NCBI GenBank assembly: GCA_947624285.1
Contig: CANQJS010000008.1
Coordinates: 1 to 61,886, forward strand
Source of the DNA: an uncultured Clostridia bacterium
GTDB taxonomy: Bacteria > Bacillota > Clostridia > Oscillospirales > Acutalibacteraceae
Direction of reading: 5' to 3'
DNA length: 61,886 nt
The notes beneath the pieces were generated by a model. It had not been told where the DNA came from, did not search any database, and saw nothing but the letters and a program-made list of their open reading frames with translations. The first letter of the stretch is position 1, and each line of letters begins with the position of its first letter. The position numbers were made by a program, and so were the translations under genes. Positions 36,010-46,153 of the stretch are shown one piece after another.

Positions 36010-36522
36010 TCAGAATTTGCGGGCAACATCGGTGAAAAAGTAGCTTAATGTATCTACGGAATTTCCCTTATCAAAAAGCGCTTTAAATTCCTCGGCAGTG
36101 ACCCACTTTGTTGTTTTGACTTCGGCGGACAAAGCGTTTTTTAGATTTACCTCGCCGTCATATTCAAAGAGCCACACTTCCATAATATCGTTAAACGGCT
36201 TGCCGTCCACGGTTTTTCGCACACGCGAAAACAGCAATTTTCCGCTTTCGGGAGAAAGATCTATCCCTACCTCCTCCTTTACTTCACGAATAGCGCCCTG
36301 AAGGCTTGTTTCTCCCTTTAACACCGAGCCGCCGACGCATTCCCATTTAAGAGGGAAGGTCGGGCGGTCGGCCGCGCGCTGAGATATGAGCCACCGGCCT
36401 TTTGAATTTTTTATCCATATATGGACAACAAGATGAAAAAAGCCGTTCGGTATCTTTTCGCCTCTTATATGCGTTTTGCCTGTAAGCTCGCGGTTTTCTG
36501 TATATAAATCCCAAAGCTCCAT
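36010..36522 (-). CDS. Nudix hydrolase
   Basis: 170 aa with a complete Nudix box, GSVLKGETSLQGAIREVKEE followed by VGI, the metal site for cleaving nucleoside diphosphate-linked substrates. The N-terminus (MELWDLYTENRELTG...GFFHLVVHIWI) resembles IPP-isomerase-like Nudix enzymes. The substrate is unknown. It stands alone between the SCP2 operon terminator and mltG. Confidence 0.88.
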   Translation of the reverse strand: MELWDLYTENRELTGKTHIRGEKIPNGFFHLVVHIWIKNSKGRWLISQRAADRPTFPLKWECVGGSVLKGETSLQGAIREVKEEVGIDLSPESGKLLFSRVRKTVDGKPFNDIMEVWLFEYDGEVNLKNALSAEVKTTKWVTAEEFKALFDKGNSVDTLSYFFTDVARKF

Positions 36523-36544
36523 AAAAATTTCCTCCTATGAAATA

Positions 36545-36571
36545 ACAAAGCGAGGAATGACCTCGCTTTGT
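36545..36571 (-). terminator. Terminator of the SCP2/transketolase operon
   Basis: A perfect 11-bp stem ACAAAGCGAGG/CCTCGCTTTGT (36545-36555 with 36561-36571), AATGA loop, 19 nt after the last gene, followed by TTATTTC on the minus strand. Confidence 0.75.
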
Positions 36572-36589
36572 ATGTTGCCGTATCTTGGT

Positions 36590-37387
36590 TTATTTTGCGA
36601 GCGCTCCGACGGTCATCATATAATCGCCTATCTGAACGCCGAACTCGGGGCCGCCCTCCATTATAAGCTGCTGATCCGCCGTCATCTGGAACATATCGCC
36701 CGTGCCGAGCAGGATTTTAAGCGCGGAGGTGGGGCAATCGAATTTCATATTGAAAAACGGCTTTGCCCTTTTGTATTCTCCCCTGCCCGCGCGGGATTTG
36801 CCCGCCTTTACGCGGATATACGCGGTGCATTCGGGATGACCCGCCACCTCCCACTGATAGCAACGGTCGGGAGATTTGAGAGCCCATTCGTGAATTTCGG
36901 GATGCCCGAGCTTGTTGAGCTGGCTTATTCCGCTTGAGAGCAGATAGAAATAGAGCTTGCACAGCAAAACGGATGTGAATTCATCGTTTTCGGGCGGCTC
37001 GGGGATATTCAAAAGACTGCTCATTTTCAGAAGCACCATCATAAATTTGATAAACTTCGGCAATGATTTTATCTTCATCTTCGGGAGCTTTAACATATCG
37101 CCTTTCATAAAAGCGTTCATTCTTTCCATAGAGGAAAACTCAAGCTCGCCGTCTATCTTTTTATCGCCCTGATATTCGCCTAACTTTACCGACCACGCGC
37201 CGTTTTCAACGATGAAATGAACTGCCTCCTTGGGCTGCCCCTCCACAAGCGCGGAAACCTGATATACGGCGTCCACGCCCTCAAATTTTTTGGCGAGCTC
37301 CGGCACATCGGTGGCAATGGTTTTAAGAAGCGGCAGCGCGCCCGCCATAAAGACCTTGTTGGCAAAGCGTGTTTCGTCACTTGGCAT
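36590..37387 (-). CDS. Double SCP2-like domain protein, distal gene
   Basis: 265 aa, cytoplasmic by appearance, no signal peptide. Two regions show the sterol-carrier-protein-2 fold pattern: first half (HFIVENGAWSVKLGEYQGDK to SLLNIPEPP) and second half (CYQWEVAGHPE to GGPEFGVQIGDYMMTVGAL). SCP2-like domains typically bind hydrophobic ligands. Domain calls are from pattern, not a search. Last gene of the operon, 44 nt after the transketolase C-subunit. The ligand is unknown. Confidence 0.55.
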   Translation of the reverse strand: MPSDETRFANKVFMAGALPLLKTIATDVPELAKKFEGVDAVYQVSALVEGQPKEAVHFIVENGAWSVKLGEYQGDKKIDGELEFSSMERMNAFMKGDMLKLPKMKIKSLPKFIKFMMVLLKMSSLLNIPEPPENDEFTSVLLCKLYFYLLSSGISQLNKLGHPEIHEWALKSPDRCYQWEVAGHPECTAYIRVKAGKSRAGRGEYKRAKPFFNMKFDCPTSALKILLGTGDMFQMTADQQLIMEGGPEFGVQIGDYMMTVGALAK

Positions 37388-37431
37388 AGTAACACTGTCC
37401 TTTCATAAAATTATTCGTGAAAACGGGGATA

Positions 37432-38442
37432 TTAAAATTCATCGTCCCACGCGTCGTCCGCCTCGAAATCGGCGTGCATCATTTCCTGAATTGCCTCGGC
37501 TATGCCGTTTGCGTCTATCTTCGCAAGCGCAAGCAGATCCTCCTGAAGCCCTATGGTTGAAAATTCGTTCTGGTGACCGAGCATCTTGAAGGCGCACGCC
37601 TTGCCCGATTTGGCTACCACCTCGGCCACAGCCGAGCCGAGACCGCCCATAACCTCGTGATCCTCGGCGGTGATTATGCGGCGTGTATCCATAACGGCGC
37701 TGAGTATAGCCTCCTCGTCAATCGGCTTTATCGTGTGCATATTGATTACTCTAACCTTTATGCCGCCGTCCGCCTCAGCCATACGCGCCGCCTGCATAGC
37801 CTCAAAAACGCAAGAGCCGCAGGCGATGACCGTAATATCCGTGCCGTCGTTCATAAGCGTGGATTTGTTCCACTCGAATTTGCAATCCTCCACATTTTTG
37901 TAGATGACTTGGTCAAAGCCTCTGTTTATACGGATATAAACAGGTCCTTCAATATCATAAGCCGCCTTTACCGCGTGGTAAGTCTCCGCGCCGTCGCACG
38001 GGCAGATAACCGTCATATTCGGCAGGCTTCTCATACACGCGAGGTCAATAAGCGAATGGTGGGTAGAGCCCGCCTGACCGAATGATGTGCCCGCGTGCGT
38101 GGCTATGATTTTTACGGGAACATTCTGATAGCATATATCCGTATGTATTTGGTCAAGAGAGCGTGCGGCGGTGAAAATCGCAAATGTCGACGCGAAAGGA
38201 ACAAGTCCGTTTTTGGCAAGACCCGCGGAAACGCTGAAAAGATTTTGCTCCGCTATGCCCACATTGAAGAAGCGCTCGGGGAATTTTTCACCGAACATAC
38301 CTATTTTTGTTGATTTAGCAAGATCGGCTGTGAGGGCGACAACATCCTTGTGCTCCTCGCCCAGCTCGCAAAGGGCGATACCGTAACATTCAGCGGTTGA
38401 AAGCTTTGTGGTATCGGTCATTGTATAAGTCATTCCGCCCAT
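37432..38442 (-). CDS. Transketolase, C-terminal subunit
   Basis: 336 aa, the pyrimidine-binding plus C-terminal half of a split transketolase. Seen: the Glu that activates thiamine diphosphate in FFNVGIAEQNLFSVSAGLA, the HAGTSFGQAGSTHHS region and AEDHEVMGGLGSAVAEV. GGAGG precedes ATG 38442, three bases after the N-subunit stop. Its genetic partners are an aminotransferase and SCP2-like proteins rather than pentose-phosphate genes, so the physiological substrate may not be the usual sugar phosphates. Confidence 0.93.
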   Translation of the reverse strand: MGGMTYTMTDTTKLSTAECYGIALCELGEEHKDVVALTADLAKSTKIGMFGEKFPERFFNVGIAEQNLFSVSAGLAKNGLVPFASTFAIFTAARSLDQIHTDICYQNVPVKIIATHAGTSFGQAGSTHHSLIDLACMRSLPNMTVICPCDGAETYHAVKAAYDIEGPVYIRINRGFDQVIYKNVEDCKFEWNKSTLMNDGTDITVIACGSCVFEAMQAARMAEADGGIKVRVINMHTIKPIDEEAILSAVMDTRRIITAEDHEVMGGLGSAVAEVVAKSGKACAFKMLGHQNEFSTIGLQEDLLALAKIDANGIAEAIQEMMHADFEADDAWDDEF

Positions 38443-38445
38443 AGC

Positions 38446-39339
38446 TTACGCCTCCTTTTCCGCACGCTCACAGCGCGCCTTATAATACTTATCAAGGGAA
38501 TCGTCGGCTCTTTTCACCATTTCATCGTCAAGCGAGCCGTAGTGCCAGAGGTAGTTATCCTCCATAAAATCAACGCCAGCGCCCTTGAAGGTGTCCATAA
38601 TAACGGCGGTGGGTTTTTCTCCCCCGTCCTGATGATTTTTGATCGCCGCTTCAACAGCGTCGTTGAGCTCCTTGAAATTGTGACCGTCAACGCGCATTAC
38701 ATTGAAGCCGAACGCCTCAAATTTCTTGTCAACAGGCTCAATGCTCATCTCATCGTTTACCCTGCCGTCTATCATACACTTGTTGTTATCGACAAAAACG
38801 ACTACATTTGAGAGCTTGAATTGCGCGGCGCTCATAGCCGCCTCCCAGTTTGAGCCCTCGTTGAGCTCGCCGTCGCCCGTTACAACATAGTTCATATAGT
38901 CGATACCCTTTACTCTTCCGGCAAGGGCAAAGCCGACGGCAAGAGAAATGCCGTGACCGAGAGACCCCGTTGAGCAGTCAACGCCGTTTACCTTGTTGCA
39001 ATCAAGGTGCATTCCGATTTTCGCGCCCGTGAGGTTGAAAATGTGCAGCTCCTCCTCCGGCATAAAGCCATAGTCAACAAGAACGGGGGCGTAGCCGACC
39101 GCCGCGTGACCCTTTGAGAGGACAAAGCGGTCTCTGTCCTCCATTTTGGAGTTATTGACATCAAGCTTCATAAAGCGGTGGTAAAGGATAGTCATAATAT
39201 CCATTGCGCTCATAGCGCCGCCCAGATGACCCGAGCCGCCCCACACCGCCGTTTTGATAGTGAGCCGCCTTAACTCATCCGCCTTTTTTTCAAGGCGAAG
39301 CCATTCGTCTTTGTCAAACGGTTTGTAATTTGCAGGCAT
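38446..39339 (-). CDS. Transketolase, N-terminal subunit
   Basis: 297 aa, thiamine-diphosphate binding half. Substrate/cofactor His region GGSGHLGGAMSAMDIM, the GDGELNEGSNWEAAMSAA plus FVDNN diphosphate-binding motif, and KFKLSNVV-like core. Split transketolases of this kind form heterotetramers with the adjacent C-terminal subunit. 21 nt after the aminotransferase. Confidence 0.93.
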   Translation of the reverse strand: MPANYKPFDKDEWLRLEKKADELRRLTIKTAVWGGSGHLGGAMSAMDIMTILYHRFMKLDVNNSKMEDRDRFVLSKGHAAVGYAPVLVDYGFMPEEELHIFNLTGAKIGMHLDCNKVNGVDCSTGSLGHGISLAVGFALAGRVKGIDYMNYVVTGDGELNEGSNWEAAMSAAQFKLSNVVVFVDNNKCMIDGRVNDEMSIEPVDKKFEAFGFNVMRVDGHNFKELNDAVEAAIKNHQDGGEKPTAVIMDTFKGAGVDFMEDNYLWHYGSLDDEMVKRADDSLDKYYKARCERAEKEA

Positions 39340-39360
39340 AAATTTTCCTCCATAAAAATT

Positions 39361-40641
39361 TTATTTTATCGGCGAAAGATCAAGCTCTGGATGATTTGCC
39401 TGAACAACGCCGAACGCGTCCTCTGCTATATCTATCGCCAGCTTAACATCATCGTCGGTGATAGAAGCGTTTATAAAGTGATTGTGGTGCGAAGCGAGGA
39501 ACAAGCCTCTTGAAACGCACTCGGCTATCCATTCCTGGTGGAGCATAAGGCTGTCGTCGTTCGCTATTCTAAGATAGAACAGCGCGGGCTCGCCCGAAAC
39601 AACAAGATTAAATCCGTGCTCCTTGCCGGCGGCAACGAAGCCTTCGGTGAGCTGCGTGCCGATTTTGCGGAACATATTCGGAACATCGAGCTTTTTCATT
39701 TTGGGTATGCAGGCAAGGCACGCCGCGAACGGCTCGGCGCTCATCCAGTAAGAGCCCGTGTAGGTTACGGACGACGCGGTGGCTTTCATATGCTCGCCGC
39801 CGCACAGGGCTGACATATTGTAGCCGTTGGCGAGCGCTTTGCAAAAGCAGATGAGATCCGCCTTTATGCCGTAATAATGATCTGAGCCCGCAATATCGAG
39901 CCTGAAGCCCGTGCGCACATCATCAAAGATGAGGACGATGCCCTTTTCATCGCAGAATTTACGCACCGCCTGCCAATATTCCTTGTTTGCAACCTCGTTA
40001 TCCTTGAAATTTCCGTGGTCATAAGGCTGAGCGATAAGACCCGCCACATCGCCGTTGCACTCATCGTAAGCCCTTTGCAAAGCGTCGAGATCAAACCACG
40101 GAACAACAACATTGTTGGCTACATCTTCGGGAAGAATGCCCGGATAATCTATCTTCTGCGCCCACTGGAAATCGCCGTGATAGTATCCCTGAAGGAAGAA
40201 TATCTTTTTCTTGCCCGTGTGAGCGCGCGCTATCATAACGGAAAATGTTGTTGCGTCAGAGCCGTTTTTCATAAAGAACGCCCAATCGGCGCTGGCGACG
40301 GTATCTTTAAGAAGCTCCGCGCACTCCACCATTTTGTAGGACGGCGAGGTGGTGCAGTTGCCGATTTTAAGCTGTGCTATCGCCGCCGCGTCAACATCGT
40401 CGTCGCAATAGCCGAGCACATTCGGACCGTAGGCGCACATAAGGTCAAGATACTTATTGCCGTCCACATCCCAGAAATATGTGCCCTTGGCGTGATCGCT
40501 CATAAGAGGCCATTTTGTTATGGGCAGAAACAGACCCTCGCTCGGCCCCAGATGACCGTAAACGCCCGAAGGAATAGCGTCCAACGCTCTGTTGAACCAC
40601 TCGCGGCTTTTTTCGTGATTATATTCAGGATATTTACTCAT
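39361..40641 (-). CDS. Class III (GSA-aminomutase-like) PLP aminotransferase
   Basis: About 426 aa. Fold type I PLP enzyme: KGTYFWDVDGNKYLDLMCAYGP, MKNGSDATTFSVMIARAHTGKK, a variant FDDVRTGFR for the cofactor Asp and the Schiff-base Lys in CFCKALANGYNMSALCG. It resembles glutamate-1-semialdehyde aminomutase, but no heme genes are nearby, so the amino acceptor is unknown. ATG 40641 behind AGGAGA is chosen; TTG 40647 is possible. It lies 35 nt after the first SCP2-like gene. Confidence 0.88.
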   Translation of the reverse strand: MSKYPEYNHEKSREWFNRALDAIPSGVYGHLGPSEGLFLPITKWPLMSDHAKGTYFWDVDGNKYLDLMCAYGPNVLGYCDDDVDAAAIAQLKIGNCTTSPSYKMVECAELLKDTVASADWAFFMKNGSDATTFSVMIARAHTGKKKIFFLQGYYHGDFQWAQKIDYPGILPEDVANNVVVPWFDLDALQRAYDECNGDVAGLIAQPYDHGNFKDNEVANKEYWQAVRKFCDEKGIVLIFDDVRTGFRLDIAGSDHYYGIKADLICFCKALANGYNMSALCGGEHMKATASSVTYTGSYWMSAEPFAACLACIPKMKKLDVPNMFRKIGTQLTEGFVAAGKEHGFNLVVSGEPALFYLRIANDDSLMLHQEWIAECVSRGLFLASHHNHFINASITDDDVKLAIDIAEDAFGVVQANHPELDLSPIK

Positions 40642-40676
40642 AATCAATTCTCCTAAGCTATATATTTATCCGTTTT

Positions 40677-41441
40677 TCAGCCGAGATATGCGGCTACCCT
40701 GTCGAGTATGCGGTTGAGATTATCCACCATGGAAATCATACCCGCCATATAAATATTCCCCTTGCAAAGCTCCGCTATTGTTGATACGGAGCCCGTAAAC
40801 AGACCGTAGGCAAGGTCTATATCGGCAAATTCCATTACGGCGCGGGGGTTATCCGTCTTTGCCTTAACGGTTTTGAAGGTATGATCCTTAACAATTATCG
40901 TCGCGTGGCAGACATCCTTTATTCCCATCAAAACCTCGCCGTCAACGGTGCTTGAGGCGGTGAACATTGAAATCGAATCGGAATTTGCCAAAGCTGAGAT
41001 CGCGCCCGCTATGGTATAGAAAGTGAGTATGGTGGATTCCTCGAAAAACGCCCTGTCCTTTAGATCCTCCTCGCTCGGTCTGAGCAGCTTTGTCATTCTG
41101 TCCGTCAACTTGGTGAACGGGCCGAGCAGGAACGCGAGCACCTGCACCATTCCCTTTGACGGCATACCGGGCTTTGACTCGTCGATAAGCGCGTTGAACT
41201 TGGCGGGGGTCGCGAAATTCATCTTGCAGGTGCAGCCGTCCGAGCCCTCGGTCATTTTACATCCGTCTTTTGTGAAATGGAATGTGGCGCATGGGCCTTC
41301 GGTAACATCAAAACACAGGGAAACAGGCTTTTTCAGCGTTTTGAGTATTTCCTTTGCCTCACCGTCTATCTCACAAAGGTTTTCGAGAGTGGCAAGCACG
41401 CCGAACATATTTACATATGCCATTGCTTTTGCTTCTTTCAA
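40677..41441 (-). CDS. Double SCP2-like domain protein, proximal gene
   Basis: 254 aa, no signal peptide. Cys-rich (VTEGPCATF, KDGCKMTEGSDGCTCK). Two SCP2-like halves: a first around LCFDVTEGPCATFHFTKDGC and a second ending in GNIYMAGMISMVDNLNRILD, typical of the fold's C-terminal helix. TTG 41441 is chosen: AGGAGG lies seven bases upstream, whereas ATG 41423 would be too far. First gene of the operon. Same architecture as the last gene but divergent in sequence. Confidence 0.55.
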   Translation of the reverse strand: MKEAKAMAYVNMFGVLATLENLCEIDGEAKEILKTLKKPVSLCFDVTEGPCATFHFTKDGCKMTEGSDGCTCKMNFATPAKFNALIDESKPGMPSKGMVQVLAFLLGPFTKLTDRMTKLLRPSEEDLKDRAFFEESTILTFYTIAGAISALANSDSISMFTASSTVDGEVLMGIKDVCHATIIVKDHTFKTVKAKTDNPRAVMEFADIDLAYGLFTGSVSTIAELCKGNIYMAGMISMVDNLNRILDRVAAYLG

Positions 41442-41493
41442 ATTTATTCCTCCTTCTCAATATATTGTTAAATAAGAAATAACACTTAATAAA

Positions 41494-41523
41494 ATTATAG
41501 CATACGGAAAAACAGACTTTCAA
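41494..41523 (-). promoter_or_regulatory. Promoter of the SCP2/aminotransferase/transketolase operon
   Basis: Minus strand: -35 TTGAAA (41523-41518), 18-nt spacer, extended -10 TGCTATAAT with hexamer at 41499-41494. It gives a leader of about 45 nt. Confidence 0.8.
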
Positions 41524-41569
41524 TGATGAAGGGCGACAAAAAAAGGAAATGATTTTGGGCAAAATATAC

Positions 41570-41607
41570 AAAATGCCGCCCCGATAATTAAATCGAAACG
41601 GCATTTT
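41570..41607. terminator. Terminator after trpS
   Basis: The stem AAAATGCCG (41570-41578) with CGGCATTTT (41599-41607), followed on the minus strand by an AT-rich run. It lies between trpS and the SCP2 operon promoter. Confidence 0.65.
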
Positions 41608-41625
41608 AAATAAAATCATATCAAA

Positions 41626-42633
41626 TCAGATAACAAATCCTACCTTTTTCATCACCTTGGCAAGTGTGCGCCCCGCCACACGCGAAGCCTTTTCCGCCCC
41701 CGCCTTTTCACATTCGATAAGATATGCCTTGTCCGCAAGAAGGCGTTTATATTCCTCCTGCACGGGGCGAAGCTCCTCAATGACCGCCTCGCCCACGGCT
41801 TTTTTGAAATCGCCGTAGCCTCTGCCCGCAAAGTCGGCTTCTATTTTTTCAAAGCTGTCCTTGGTAACGGCGGAATAGATGGTCATCAGGTTATTTATTC
41901 CGTCCTTCCCCTCGCCGTAGTGAACGCTTGTCTCGCTGTCCGTAACGGCGGATTTAAACTTATTCATTATCACATTCGGCTCGTCCGTGAGCATAACGGT
42001 AGCTCTCGGATTGGGGTCGGATTTGCTCATTTTCTTTTTCGGGTCGGCAAGGCTCATTACCCTTGCGCCGAACTTTGGGATAAACGGCTCGGGAACAGTG
42101 AAAACATTGCCGTAAACGCCGTTGAAGCGCTGAGCGATATCGCGGCACAGCTCAACATGCTGCTTCTGGTCGTCGCCGACCGGCACAACATCCGCCTGAT
42201 AGATAAGAATATCGGCGGCCATAAGGCAGGGATAAGTAAAGAGCCCCGCGTTGATATTATCGCTGTGCTGGGCGGATTTATCCTTAAATTGCGTCATACG
42301 GCTGAGCTCGCCGAACTGCGTGTAGCAGTTGAGTATCCACGCAAGCTGGGAATGGGCGGGTACTTGAGACTGAACGAACACTATCCCTCGCTCGGGGTCT
42401 ATTCCGAGGGCAAGGAGCATTGCAAACATCTCGTGCGTGCGCTGCCTGAGCTTCGCGGGCTCTTGCCTTACGGTTATTGAATGGAGATCGGCAACGCCGT
42501 AAATCGTATCGTACTCACCCTGAAATGACGGCCAGCCCTTTAACGCTCCGATATAATTCCCGAGAGTGGGGACTGATGTGGGCTGTATAAATGACAGACT
42601 TCTCTTTTTTCTTTCCGTTTTCAATTCCTCCAT
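41626..42633 (-). CDS. trpS: Tryptophanyl-tRNA synthetase
   Basis: Charges tRNA-Trp. Class Ic motifs: TLGNYIGALKGW (HIGH variant) and KKKMSKSDPN. ATG 42633 (335 aa) is chosen behind GAGGT; the ORF could start two codons earlier at TTG. Long for a compact TrpRS but normal for Clostridia. It follows the PLP aminotransferase by 11 nt. Confidence 0.97.
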   Translation of the reverse strand: MEELKTERKKRSLSFIQPTSVPTLGNYIGALKGWPSFQGEYDTIYGVADLHSITVRQEPAKLRQRTHEMFAMLLALGIDPERGIVFVQSQVPAHSQLAWILNCYTQFGELSRMTQFKDKSAQHSDNINAGLFTYPCLMAADILIYQADVVPVGDDQKQHVELCRDIAQRFNGVYGNVFTVPEPFIPKFGARVMSLADPKKKMSKSDPNPRATVMLTDEPNVIMNKFKSAVTDSETSVHYGEGKDGINNLMTIYSAVTKDSFEKIEADFAGRGYGDFKKAVGEAVIEELRPVQEEYKRLLADKAYLIECEKAGAEKASRVAGRTLAKVMKKVGFVI

Positions 42634-42644
42634 AATCAATTACC

Positions 42645-43832
42645 TCACTTAAACTGTTTTGCGATCTCGCCCATCACTTTCACGCCCTTGACTATATCAT
42701 CATCGGACGGGGTGGAATAATTAAGGCGTATATATCGGCAGGGCTTAGTATCGTCCGTCATAAAGGCGGTGCCCGGAACAACGGCGACATTTTTCTCTAT
42801 AAGCTTATTTACATATTGAAGCATATCCGCGTTTTCGGGGAGCTTTGCCCATATGAACAGCCCGCCCTGCGGCCTTACATATTCTATGAAATCTCCGCAG
42901 TATTCGTCAAGGCATCTGCACATAAGCTCCAGCTTTCTGCGATAGATTTTTCTTATGCTCTCGATATGCGCGTCAACATCATATTCTGAAAACCAGCGGG
43001 AAACTATCATCTGATTCAGCACGCCCGTATGGACATCGGAAACCTGCTTGCCTATGGTGAACGCGCCGGCGGCTTTCTTGGGCACAACTGCGTACGCTAC
43101 TCTTATTCCGGGAGCGAGGATCTTGGAAAAAGAGCCCGCATAGATGACTATACCCTGAGTATCCATACTCTTTATTGACGGCACGCTTTCACCCTCAACG
43201 CGCAGGTTGCCGTAAGGGTCGTCCTCCAGAATAACGAGCCCGTTTTCCTTTGCGAGAGCATACATTTTCTTGCGCTTTTCAAAGCTCAAAGTCGTTCCGC
43301 CGGGGTTTTGGAAATTAGGTATCGTGTAGATAAATTTAGCATCGGGGTTATCTTTTATCGTCCGCTCGAGCGCATCGATATTCATTCCGTCGGCGTCTAT
43401 CGGCACGCCGGCAAGCTTGCAGCCGTGGGAGCGAAAGCAGTTGAGAGAGCCTATAAAGGAGGGATCTTCACAGATGACGGTATCGCCCTCGCTTGCAAGT
43501 ATTCTTGTTGTGATATCCATAACCTGCGTTCCGCCGGAGGTTATGATTATCTCATCGTCCTCTGTGCCTATATTATCGCGCCGCTTGAGCCATTCCCTCA
43601 CCTGAACGCGCAGAGGCTCATAACCCTCCGATACGCCGTAAACAAGGGCGGAAACAGGGTTTTCGCTCAAAATTTCGTTTGATATTTTTCTTACCTCGTC
43701 ACACGGGAATGCCTCCACGGCGGGAGAGCCGCCCGCAAAGGCTATCATACCCGGCTGGCTTGTTGCTTTAAGTATCTCTCTTACCGCCGACGGTTTCAAA
43801 TCGGCAAATTTTTTTGACAGTTCGTAGTTCAT
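42645..43832 (-). CDS. PLP-dependent aminotransferase, class I/II
   Basis: 395 aa, fold type I, of the kind seen in 2-aminoadipate/LysN-like and MocR-core enzymes. Seen: IAFAGGSPAVEAFP, TSGGTQVMDIT, YTIPNFQNPGGTTLS, cofactor Lys in YAGSFSKILAPGIRVAY, and RLNYSTPSDDDI. There is no N-terminal DNA-binding domain, so it is an enzyme and not a MocR regulator. The substrate is not assigned. ATG directly follows the stop of the CDP-glycerol transferase-like gene. Confidence 0.88.
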   Translation of the reverse strand: MNYELSKKFADLKPSAVREILKATSQPGMIAFAGGSPAVEAFPCDEVRKISNEILSENPVSALVYGVSEGYEPLRVQVREWLKRRDNIGTEDDEIIITSGGTQVMDITTRILASEGDTVICEDPSFIGSLNCFRSHGCKLAGVPIDADGMNIDALERTIKDNPDAKFIYTIPNFQNPGGTTLSFEKRKKMYALAKENGLVILEDDPYGNLRVEGESVPSIKSMDTQGIVIYAGSFSKILAPGIRVAYAVVPKKAAGAFTIGKQVSDVHTGVLNQMIVSRWFSEYDVDAHIESIRKIYRRKLELMCRCLDEYCGDFIEYVRPQGGLFIWAKLPENADMLQYVNKLIEKNVAVVPGTAFMTDDTKPCRYIRLNYSTPSDDDIVKGVKVMGEIAKQFK

Positions 43833-44960
43833 TTATTTCGCCTGCTCTATAATATTTTCAACAAAGCGCCTGCTCGAATCCCCGTCGCACAGGGAGACGA
43901 AGCGTTCCTTGAATTTTTTTAGCCTTTCGTCGCTTTTCCCCGCGTTTTTAACGGCGGCGGCAAGCTCACTCTGCTCCTTCACCACCGCGCCGCAGGAATA
44001 AGCGTCATAATCAAAGTAAAATCCCCTCTCGCCCGTGTAATCTTCAAGGTCGGGAGCGTATAAAACGGAGGGATTATCCAATATCGCGTTTTCAAAGATA
44101 ACGGATGAATAATCCGTTACCAAAACATCGGTTATGAACAGAATATCGTTTATTTCACGCTCATCGCTGAAATCAAACACCCTGTCGGAAACCGACGCGG
44201 GTATCTCAGGTTTGTTTTTAATGAACGGATGATATTTCAGAATAACCGCCCAATCGTCACCGAGCTCGTTTGCGAACTTGGAAATATCAAGAAATTCCGC
44301 GGGATAATAGCCGTCGTTGACGCTTGCGCCCCTGAATGTGGGGGCGAAAAGGCATATTTTTTTGCCGCGAAGCCGCGGCTCTCTTTCATAGAGTCTTTTT
44401 TCGGTTTTTGCCCTGTACTCGCTGTCAAACAGCATATCCGTTCTCGGCACGCCGACCGGCTTTACCCTGCTTTCGTCTATACCGAACGCCTCGGCGTATA
44501 TGCCCGTTATTTCCTTTGAGGAAACTATCGCCTCGGTATAATTTTTATGGGTGAGCGAGTTTTTCTCGGCGGAAGCTCTGCCGTAGCCGAATTTTTTGAA
44601 AGCCCCCATAGCATGCCATACCTGAACGAGATGCTGACCCTCTCGCAGCTTTAGAACATAGACAACAGGCTCAAAATCATCAACAAGAATAAATTTGCTG
44701 ACAGCCATTTCCCTCGCCACGGTCTTATCATCGGGCATATTTTCGCTTGTGAAAGCAGTTATTCTGTAGGGCAGGGCGTTTTTATCAATATATTCCTTAA
44801 TAGCCGTAAGATTGCCACCCAGCCTGCCTCTTGAGGTGGTAAACATAAGTATTTTATCGTTTTCCATAGGCGCTTTGCACGCCTTATTGAAAAGGAAAAT
44901 GAATTTTGAAAATCTAAGCCGCTGAAGCGCGGGATAAAGCATCGATATCAATCCGCTCAT
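43833..44960 (-). CDS. CDP-glycerol glycerophosphotransferase-like protein (downstream)
   Basis: 375 aa, TagB/TagF superfamily that adds polyol-phosphate units in teichoic acid synthesis at the membrane face. Seen: VQVWHAMGAFKKFGYGRAS, VPRTDMLFD, and the VTDYSSVIFENAILDNPSVLY end. It overlaps the upstream paralogue by 4 nt (ATGA). The polymer it acts on is inferred. Confidence 0.85.
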   Translation of the reverse strand: MSGLISMLYPALQRLRFSKFIFLFNKACKAPMENDKILMFTTSRGRLGGNLTAIKEYIDKNALPYRITAFTSENMPDDKTVAREMAVSKFILVDDFEPVVYVLKLREGQHLVQVWHAMGAFKKFGYGRASAEKNSLTHKNYTEAIVSSKEITGIYAEAFGIDESRVKPVGVPRTDMLFDSEYRAKTEKRLYEREPRLRGKKICLFAPTFRGASVNDGYYPAEFLDISKFANELGDDWAVILKYHPFIKNKPEIPASVSDRVFDFSDEREINDILFITDVLVTDYSSVIFENAILDNPSVLYAPDLEDYTGERGFYFDYDAYSCGAVVKEQSELAAAVKNAGKSDERLKKFKERFVSLCDGDSSRRFVENIIEQAK

Positions 44961-46153
44961 TTTTCTTGTGCTCCGTAATTAAATCTGCCGTCATAAACGC
45001 CTTTGATAAGCTCGTCTGCAACGGTACAGTAGATTTTTGTAACGCTCGGGAATTTTTTGTTGACATATGCTTTTTTAAAGCTTTCCGTTTTTTCGGCGGG
45101 GACTGTTTTTCCCTGCTCTATCGCGCCGTAGATCTCCCGCGCGGTTTTGCCGTAAACAGCGGGAATATCTTTCCAAAAATCAATGTAAAAGCCCCGTTCG
45201 TCGATATATTTTTCGCCGTCGAAGCAGTAGATATAAATGGGAAGCTCTTTCAAAAGCGCCTCATAGATTATGGAGCTGTAATCGGTTATAACGAAATCGC
45301 AAACACACATAAAATCCATTCCGATGAAGCTGCCGCCGACCGCTTTATTTTCTTTCGAGTCCGTGTAGATTTCCTCAAGCCCCGAATCAATAATATGATG
45401 CTTAACAACAAGATTAAAGCGGCTGAAATCCACGGAGTCAACAAGCTCTTCGGTTTTTTGACGAAGCTGCGCCGTATCCTGCGGGTTGTCGCGGAATGTG
45501 GGAACATAAAGTATTGTTTTTCTGCCGTTATTCAGCTGAGGATATGCGGAATATACGGCTTTTTTTGTTTTTTCATTCTCGCCTTCATCGGTGAGATAAT
45601 CCATCCGCGGAATCCCTATTGGTATGAATTTTTCCTCGGGCTGACCGAAAGCCTCGGCAAAATGCTTCACGCATTCGTCGCCGCTCGTTGCGATAAGGTC
45701 ATAATTTTCGTGCATTTTAAAGGCGCGGGCAACCTTGCTTGAGCTGCCGCCCTCCATATCGAGTATTGATTTCCCGAATCGCTTGAATGAGCCGAGGGCG
45801 TGCCACATCTGAATTATTTTAAGCTCTTTTTTATGCTTGAGCATACAGGCTAATATACAATAGCCGTCGAGTATGACGACCTTTGAGGTGGCAAGGGCGT
45901 TCATCTGCCGCAGCATCTCAAAAAAATAGCTTATTTTGCCGATAAGCCCGCTCGGTATCATTTTGCAAAGCACCGTTATCTCATACTGAGGATAATCGGC
46001 TTTAAGCTCATCGATAAGATAACGGAAATCGAGAGAGGGCTTTTCGCTTTGTCGGGAGATGAACGAGATCTTATTCCGCGTTTTTTTCAGCTTGAAAAAG
46101 GAATAGATTATCCCCATAAAAAATCCGAACAGCTTCGCAAATACGCCTATCAC
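44957..46153 (-). CDS. CDP-glycerol glycerophosphotransferase-like protein (upstream)
   Basis: 398 aa paralogue of the next gene. Seen: IQMWHALGSFKRFGKSI, GIPRMDYLTDEG, and FVITDYSSIIYEALLKELPI. Begins at GTG 46153 with a GAGATAAG site. A short hydrophobic N-terminal stretch (AKLFGFFMGIIYSFF) suggests membrane association. A TagH-type export ATPase lies 7 kb away. Confidence 0.85.
   Translation of the reverse strand: MIGVFAKLFGFFMGIIYSFFKLKKTRNKISFISRQSEKPSLDFRYLIDELKADYPQYEITVLCKMIPSGLIGKISYFFEMLRQMNALATSKVVILDGYCILACMLKHKKELKIIQMWHALGSFKRFGKSILDMEGGSSSKVARAFKMHENYDLIATSGDECVKHFAEAFGQPEEKFIPIGIPRMDYLTDEGENEKTKKAVYSAYPQLNNGRKTILYVPTFRDNPQDTAQLRQKTEELVDSVDFSRFNLVVKHHIIDSGLEEIYTDSKENKAVGGSFIGMDFMCVCDFVITDYSSIIYEALLKELPIYIYCFDGEKYIDERGFYIDFWKDIPAVYGKTAREIYGAIEQGKTVPAEKTESFKKAYVNKKFPSVTKIYCTVADELIKGVYDGRFNYGAQEK

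Follow-up and report, generated by a model that had tools for sequence, protein, structure and literature searches.

A conserved five-gene operon of Clostridia and Spirochaetes that may take apart sphingoid bases by transamination and transketolase cleavage

Described systems for sphingoid bases and the five-gene operon

The sphingosine-1-phosphate (S1P) lyase of Burkholderia (S1PL) is a described means of bacterial sphingosine handling, and in 2016 S1P lyase was presented as the only enzyme known to take sphingoid bases irreversibly out of the sphingolipid pool (PMC5234717). In Pseudomonas aeruginosa, sphBC is described as acting in the metabolism and detoxification of free sphingoid bases by means of a periplasmic FMN-linked oxidoreductase and a cytochrome c, with a product that is unknown (PMC11893366). 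Fumonisin, which is described as structurally resembling sphingosine and sphinganine, loses its C2 amine to transaminases of the FumI kind, of which 6HBS_A is FumI itself and a relative, FumUPTA, uses pyruvate (PMC9858248). The present analysis concerns a five-gene operon in a 61,886-nucleotide stretch of DNA, referred to here as the window, from an uncultured Clostridia bacterium of the Acutalibacteraceae (GenBank assembly GCA_947624285.1, contig CANQJS010000008.1, positions 1 to 61,886 of the forward strand). It encodes an aminotransferase (AT3), a transketolase (TK) in two subunits (TKN and TKC) and two SCP2-like proteins (SCPa and SCPb). The operon was confirmed as real on the minus strand of this gut Clostridium-like bacterium, with the following features:

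41494..41523, minus strand: promoter-like site TTGAAA-18-TATAAT with TG ahead of the -10 element (11 of 12 matches, top of 23 in the scanned region)
40677..41441, minus strand: SCPa, predicted double-domain SCP2-like protein, partner of AT3
39361..40641, minus strand: AT3, class III pyridoxal phosphate (PLP) aminotransferase (PF00202), grouping by sequence with FumI (aminopentol aminotransferase)
38446..39339, minus strand: TKN, transketolase N-terminal subunit binding thiamine diphosphate (ThDP) (PF00456), conserved His residues retained
37432..38442, minus strand: TKC, transketolase C-terminal subunit (PF02779 and PF02780) with D424A, R318A and E423Q (human numbering)
36590..37387, minus strand: SCPb, second predicted double-domain SCP2-like protein, partner of the transketolase
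36545..36571, minus strand: terminator-like hairpin of 11 pairs with a weak T tract

No Rfam match was found in positions 36300-42700. As regards a sulfo-transketolase of sulfoquinovose metabolism, no sulfo gene is present in the five-gene operon.

Our analysis indicates that the FumI-like AT3 and a transketolase re-tooled for lipids probably interconvert sphinganine with a fatty aldehyde and the ketol of a sugar phosphate, each with the help of its own SCP2-type carrier. The reading that we prefer, tentatively, is that the operon dismantles sphingoid bases of the sphinganine or sphingosine type by a route that needs neither a kinase nor S1P lyase. In the first step, suggested by the enzyme family, SCPa would present the long-chain base and AT3 would transfer the amine at C2 of the base to pyruvate or another oxo acid, giving a 1,3-dihydroxyalkan-2-one. 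In the second, which the altered active site suggests, SCPb would hand this 1,3-dihydroxy-2-ketone to the split transketolase, which would cut the C2-C3 bond, transfer the C1-C2 ketol held on ThDP to a sugar-phosphate aldose and free a long-chain fatty aldehyde. In the third, suggested by neighbouring genes in a few relatives, the aldehyde would be oxidised by an aldehyde dehydrogenase (ALDH) or an aldehyde:ferredoxin oxidoreductase (AFOR), and a flavoenzyme of the old yellow enzyme (OYE) type may first reduce the 2-enal derived from sphingosine. SCPa and AT3 without the transketolase module would amount to a shorter version for deamination, turnover or detoxification. The two enzymes fit together because a sphingoid base deaminated at C2 is a 1,3-dihydroxyalkan-2-one, which holds exactly the bond that transketolase cuts; the same steps in reverse would give sphinganine. 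This chemistry is well supported; its direction is not.

The proposed route would resemble the S1P lyase pathway in ending in a long-chain aldehyde, which in that pathway ((2E)-hexadecenal when it comes from sphingosine) is oxidised by enzymes of the fatty aldehyde dehydrogenase (FALDH) type. It would differ in using no kinase and an unphosphorylated base, and in dividing the work so that PLP removes only the amine and ThDP cuts the carbon-carbon bond; the two-carbon unit would enter a sugar phosphate rather than phosphoethanolamine. At the locus, none of the five genes encodes a PLP lyase or a sphingoid kinase. The operon and sphBC have in common the handling of free sphingoid bases by bacteria, but no gene of the sphBC type is among the five.

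The aminotransferase, the transketolase and their SCP2-like partners

A scan of contigs with an alignment of AT3 gave at least 80 loci, and the counts given below for L018-L060 are among the matches listed. The top PDB match of AT3 was aminopentol aminotransferase (6hbs/6hbv; 279.7 bits), followed by glutamate-1-semialdehyde (GSA) aminomutase with 154.1 bits. In a quick tree of 45 rows (42 of the 80 listed loci, the window and two PDB sequences), AT3 and FumI fell within one group of 36 rows (SH-aLRT 100) with GSA aminomutase outside, and inside that group AT3 formed a clade of its own, separate from the FumI clade. The PDB score and the tree ruled out that AT3 is a GSA aminomutase of heme formation. 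AT3 has the class III fold with its catalytic lysine, as the Lys of its CFCKALANG motif aligns with that of FumI, and the motifs IPxGxYGH, MCAYGPN, ADWAxFxKNGSDAT, DDVRxGFR and TGSxWxSA are common to the two proteins. AT3 resembles FumI, the fumonisin-detoxifying enzyme of Sphingopyxis, in its class III sequence group and, by likeness of sequence, probably in its target, the amine at C2 of a long-chain substrate, which for FumI is an aminopolyol. The two differ in clade, in identity (36.8% over 408 aa) and in company: tblastn found no SCPa in the other 37 listed loci, L061-L097 (AT3 identity up to 44%), which include the nearest rows to FumI, and we know of no transketolase partner of FumI.

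The initial annotation had proposed an amino-bearing carbohydrate or lipid as the compound built or modified, and on the kinship with FumI this can be sharpened to a probable lipid rather than a carbohydrate; an amine-bearing lipid is also plausible from the neighbours in relatives that resemble serine palmitoyltransferase (SPT) and ketosphinganine reductase, described below. The carbohydrate half of the proposal was weakened, because AT3 groups with FumI and the transketolase has lost the residue that recognises the hydroxyl of the acceptor.

A different cluster was observed in L090 (7900-13600), L092 (8080-11314) and L097 (6938-13780), from Chloroflexota, Chlorobiota and Bacteroidota, where the genes of a split transketolase immediately precede one for a class III aminotransferase; at two of these loci, genes for a short-chain dehydrogenase/reductase (SDR), a phosphatase-like and a NeuB-like protein follow (by eye), giving the look of a nonulosonic or extended-sugar pathway. 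These loci are the precedent for a reading in which the operon's transketolase and aminotransferase build an amino sugar. However, their aminotransferases are 30-34% identical to AT3 and branch outside the AT3-FumI group of 36 rows, the five genes of the operon include two for SCP2-like proteins but none for a glycosyltransferase or of the sugar-nucleotide kind, and the operon transketolase lacks the residue for hydroxylated acceptors. Synthesis of an amino carbohydrate is therefore very unlikely.

For the transketolase, residues were mapped by alignment to 4kxu and are given in human numbering. Partly from general knowledge, D424 is taken here as equivalent to D469 of the E. coli and D477 of the yeast enzyme, and R474 as equivalent to R528; Arg102 of TKN is taken, by motif, as E. 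coli R91, the salt-bridge partner of the acceptor-site aspartate. In all 34 operon TKC sequences D424, the residue that reads the C2 hydroxyl of the acceptor, was replaced by Ala, a change present in none of the 13 housekeeping TKC of the same genomes, and E423, which is Glu in 13 of 13 housekeeping copies, was Gln, His or Thr. R318, which belongs to the phosphate site, had given way to Ala, Ser or Gly in 32 of the 34 (Arg in 13 of 13 housekeeping copies), and Asn took the place of TKN Arg102, conserved in the housekeeping copies, in 90% or more of the operon sequences. The catalytic Glu366 and His416 as well as R474 were retained in 34 of 34; with its ThDP site and its catalytic Glu and His residues kept, the protein is a transketolase. 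This table omits TKC of fewer than 300 aa and takes in L040 and L169 as partial rows; the contigs of L025 and L059 carry no TKC. Its housekeeping rows come from 13 of 17 genomes: no separate split TKC was obtained from G198, G205, G209 or G212, and the full-length transketolase L098 of G209 was left out of the count.

In E. coli transketolase, R91 and H100 are reported as the salt-bridge partners of D469, and D469T raised activity on propionaldehyde fivefold (PMC6310800). In the yeast enzyme, D477E reportedly brought a 50- to 100-fold gain in activity on aliphatic aldehydes, and R528 binds the substrate phosphate (PMC5573996). Since D424, E423 and R318 are lost while R474 is kept along with the catalytic residues, the pocket looks re-tooled for one partner that is neither hydroxylated nor phosphorylated, and the other partner may remain a sugar phosphate. 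The operon enzyme and the split transketolases of Carboxydothermus hydrogenoformans (PDB 6yaj) and of housekeeping type are alike in their two subunits, ThDP site and catalytic His and Glu; they differ in D424A, R318A/S/G, E423Q and other pocket changes, in clade, and in the linkage to AT3 and SCPb.

A transketolase of the ordinary pentose-phosphate type, placed by chance in an operon with unrelated genes, was also considered. In genome G000, which is only 75% complete, no transketolase was found besides that of the operon except a dxs-like gene, as such a reading would expect. Nevertheless, of the 17 genomes examined, 13 have a separate split transketolase, one of them a genome of the window's genus that is 99% complete, and operon TKC formed a clade of its own (support 99) apart from the housekeeping split transketolase. 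The separate enzyme, the clade and the loss of D424 and R318 rule out the ordinary role, which is left with a negligible likelihood; the doubt raised in the initial annotation, that the transketolase might group with ordinary enzymes and be the only one, was thereby removed.

Both SCP2-like proteins folded confidently in structure prediction, each with the SCP2 sandwich fold, in keeping with the earlier assignment from sequence. SCPa stays with AT3 and SCPb with the transketolase even where the loci are rearranged (L047, L052 and L166/L167), and each enzyme may have its own lipid carrier. UbiJ is a non-catalytic, lipid-holding partner of enzymes. It has the SCP2 fold in common with SCPa and SCPb but is a single-domain protein of another pathway, ubiquinone synthesis (6h6n-6h6p). 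A role in sterol metabolism, considered on account of the SCP2 fold and of Eubacterium coprostanoligenes, was rejected: no sterol-enzyme family matched the five genes, and the chemistry of AT3 and the transketolase is unsuited to it.

Two modules and the serine-palmitoyltransferase-like genes

Among the 43 listed loci with AT3 identity of 48% or more (L018-L060), from Clostridia and Spirochaetes, 22 carried the five genes in identical order, so that the operon described in the initial annotation is one conserved unit in which the SCP2-like genes stand beside the other three in relatives as well. Four were truncated by contig ends (L025, L029, L040 and L059), two had the modules rearranged (L047 and L052), L038 had AT3, TKN, TKC and SCPb with SCPa undetectable, and 14 had SCPa-AT3 alone at the locus. 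The genomes of 12 of these 14 were searched for SCPb (L043 and L050, whose contigs stop shortly past AT3, were left out); it was found elsewhere in four (L039, L046, L055 and L056) and not found in eight. In G052, SCPb likewise sits on another contig.

The scan anchored on AT3 was complemented by SCP profile searches of 398 genomes of the phylum, in which SCPb was found in five and SCPa in seven, all five SCPb genomes carrying SCPa. These searches added three loci with the five-gene order (L163, L164 and L165), one pair (L168) and one locus with four genes followed by the contig end (L169); in G454 the two modules are split over two contigs. The reading of the loci and the co-occurrence of SCPa and SCPb show that the operon consists of two modules, SCPa-AT3 and TKN-TKC-SCPb, the second of which was never seen without the first in the phylum sample. 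SCPb was used as the marker for the transketolase module, the adjoining transketolase genes being unread in G052, G689, G691, G695 and G696; in G424 these genes were read, and SCPb falls beyond the contig end. Hosts of the operon were Clostridia and Spirochaetes, and three Actinobacteria carried the SCPa-AT3 pair alone. In the window's genus SCPb was found in 52 of 80 genomes searched and was patchy, being absent from 13 of 51 high-quality genomes. Viral contigs gave three pattern matches and no relative.

Genes adjoining SCPa-AT3 were matched best by the NCBIfam models for serine palmitoyltransferase (536 bits) and for 3-ketodihydrosphingosine reductase (229 bits), with neither score reaching its curated cut-off, and two gene orders were seen, SCPa-AT3-SPT-SDR (L014 and L015) and SPT-SDR-SCPa-AT3 (L044). 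An SPT-like gene adjoins a ketosphinganine-reductase-like SDR gene in L014, L044/L144, L142, L143 and L145. When a close SPT match was defined as 440 bits or more, it was present in eight of 13 SCPa genomes without SCPb compared to one of 29 with the transketolase module (Fisher p 8.5e-5, not corrected for phylogeny), these being the genomes put through the SPT search rather than all carriers. The single exception, G453 (L164 and L177; 588 bits), alone among the genomes seen combines the five-gene operon with a close SPT match, and offers a test case for joint working of the two routes. In the sample of the order, SPT (E up to 1e-130) was found in 25 of 197 genomes, which suggests from sequence that a number of these Clostridia make sphingolipid-type compounds; it was present in four of four SCPa genomes without the transketolase module compared to 21 of 193 others (p 0.0002, likewise uncorrected for phylogeny). 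Weaker SPT-like matches (36-43% identity) occurred in six genomes with the transketolase module (G209-G211, G216, G217 and G599) and may represent different enzymes of the family. Five genomes had SCPa-AT3 with neither SCPb nor a close SPT (three Actinobacteria, G513 and G693; G213 and G214 are among the five).

Direction of the route and its significance

The distribution of SPT bears directly on the chief rival to dismantling, in which the same enzymes run in reverse as an SPT-independent synthesis: the transketolase would add the ketol to a fatty aldehyde and AT3 would aminate the C2 ketone. Sphinganine is just what this reaction sequence would yield, the genus commonly carries the operon, and among the SCPa genomes compared close SPT is nearly confined to those that lack SCPb. 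This reading is nonetheless unlikely, though not lightly set aside. Genomes with SPT already have the amine, which would make AT3 superfluous, and the five genomes with neither SCPb nor close SPT would have no source of the ketone; the weaker SPT-like matches in six genomes with the transketolase module and the patchiness within the genus also tell against it, as do neighbours that would draw the aldehyde away. The latter are an alcohol dehydrogenase and an ALDH gene between the modules in L047, the ALDH retaining the Glu of ELGG and the Cys of GQTC, both oxidative motifs; a 50% identical ALDH in L039, some 8 kb away from the pair; and AFOR genes in L055 and L057, at a distance of some 4 kb from operon or pair. 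OYE genes and genes of the vicinal oxygen chelate (VOC) type follow SCPb in L049 (14284-17750), L051 (13979-17525) and L057 (8931-11555; OYE only 25% identical). The VOC/glyoxalase-type gene and the large OYE-type flavoenzyme in these three loci are possible additional steps of the pathway.

Several observations weigh against dismantling as well. The genes that handle aldehydes are limited to a few divergent loci and none lies beside the window's operon. Both reactions are reversible, so that synthesis is chemically possible; SPT and the transketolase module largely interchange beside SCPa-AT3, as if they were sources of the same base, and cells with SPT would have no evident need of AT3. AT3 without the transketolase is rarer than the neighbourhoods suggest, because SCPb lies elsewhere in G052, L039, L046, L055 and L056, and these five apparent pair-only cases weaken the degradative reading. 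With an identity of only 36.8%, the substrate of AT3 may have shifted from that of FumI. Ceramidase (PF04734) was over the cut-off in four of 27 genomes, or six of 27 at E up to 0.001, and was not found in G000 or G145; because it is mostly absent, the cells would rely on free bases released by others.

The conserved histidines of the transketolase are presumably those that grip the ketol hydroxyls. Their retention would suit a 1-hydroxy over a 1-deoxy base, and the SPT-like and ketosphinganine-reductase-like genes, which directly adjoin in two orders, point to sphingoid bases; both speak against another long-chain 2-amino lipid or lipophilic amine as the substrate, removed mainly for detoxification as FumI does with fumonisin. 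We consider such a substrate improbable, in spite of the kinship with FumI and the SCPa-AT3 pair alone in three Actinobacteria, in two of which (L034 and L037) a TetR-like gene stands just upstream (by eye) and in L034 of which a gene for a major facilitator superfamily (MFS) transporter follows AT3. TetR-family genes, which count in favour of detoxification, also lie near L033, L049, L051, L057, L060, L163 and L164 (checked with Pfam in L049 only), beside the VOC and OYE genes in L049 and L051 and upstream of SCPa in L057. In L168 (G513:C1:2227000-2239000), in a 6.4-Mb genome without SCPb or close SPT, the pair adjoins a permease-like and a large regulator-like gene (by eye) and is possibly a stand-alone deamination unit.

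Degradation is favoured because of the aldehyde-oxidising neighbours and synthesis is left open because SPT and the transketolase replace each other, so that degradation or detoxification somewhat outweighs synthesis. The OYE and VOC genes, the TetR-family genes near seven loci, the presence of SCPa in every SCPb genome of the phylum sample and the five genomes that have SCPa-AT3 with neither SCPb nor close SPT are further points on the side of degradation. The initial annotation had left it at building or modifying; taking apart now ranks first and building second. Elsewhere in the window, two neighbouring genes at 43833-46153 resemble, by eye, CDP-glycerol glycerophosphotransferases of the teichoic-acid type.

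No account of this operon was found among the matches listed in the open-access literature; the enzymes belong to known families, and the novelty would lie in their combination and in the proposed route. If it is true, transaminase and transketolase would together give anaerobes a second exit from, or a new entrance to, the sphingolipid pool, coupling sphingolipids with the pentose phosphate pool in a direct way and bypassing SPT and S1P lyase. Enzyme engineers would also gain a natural transketolase of the kind they have been looking for, one that takes long aliphatic substrates. The route would span Clostridia and Spirochaetes, many of them from animal guts, and the SCPb-bearing genus has Eubacterium coprostanoligenes among its relatives. 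It would explain how gut anaerobes could cope with the antimicrobial long-chain bases of diet, host and Bacteroides, and would form a testable link between gut bacteria and the sphingolipids of the host.

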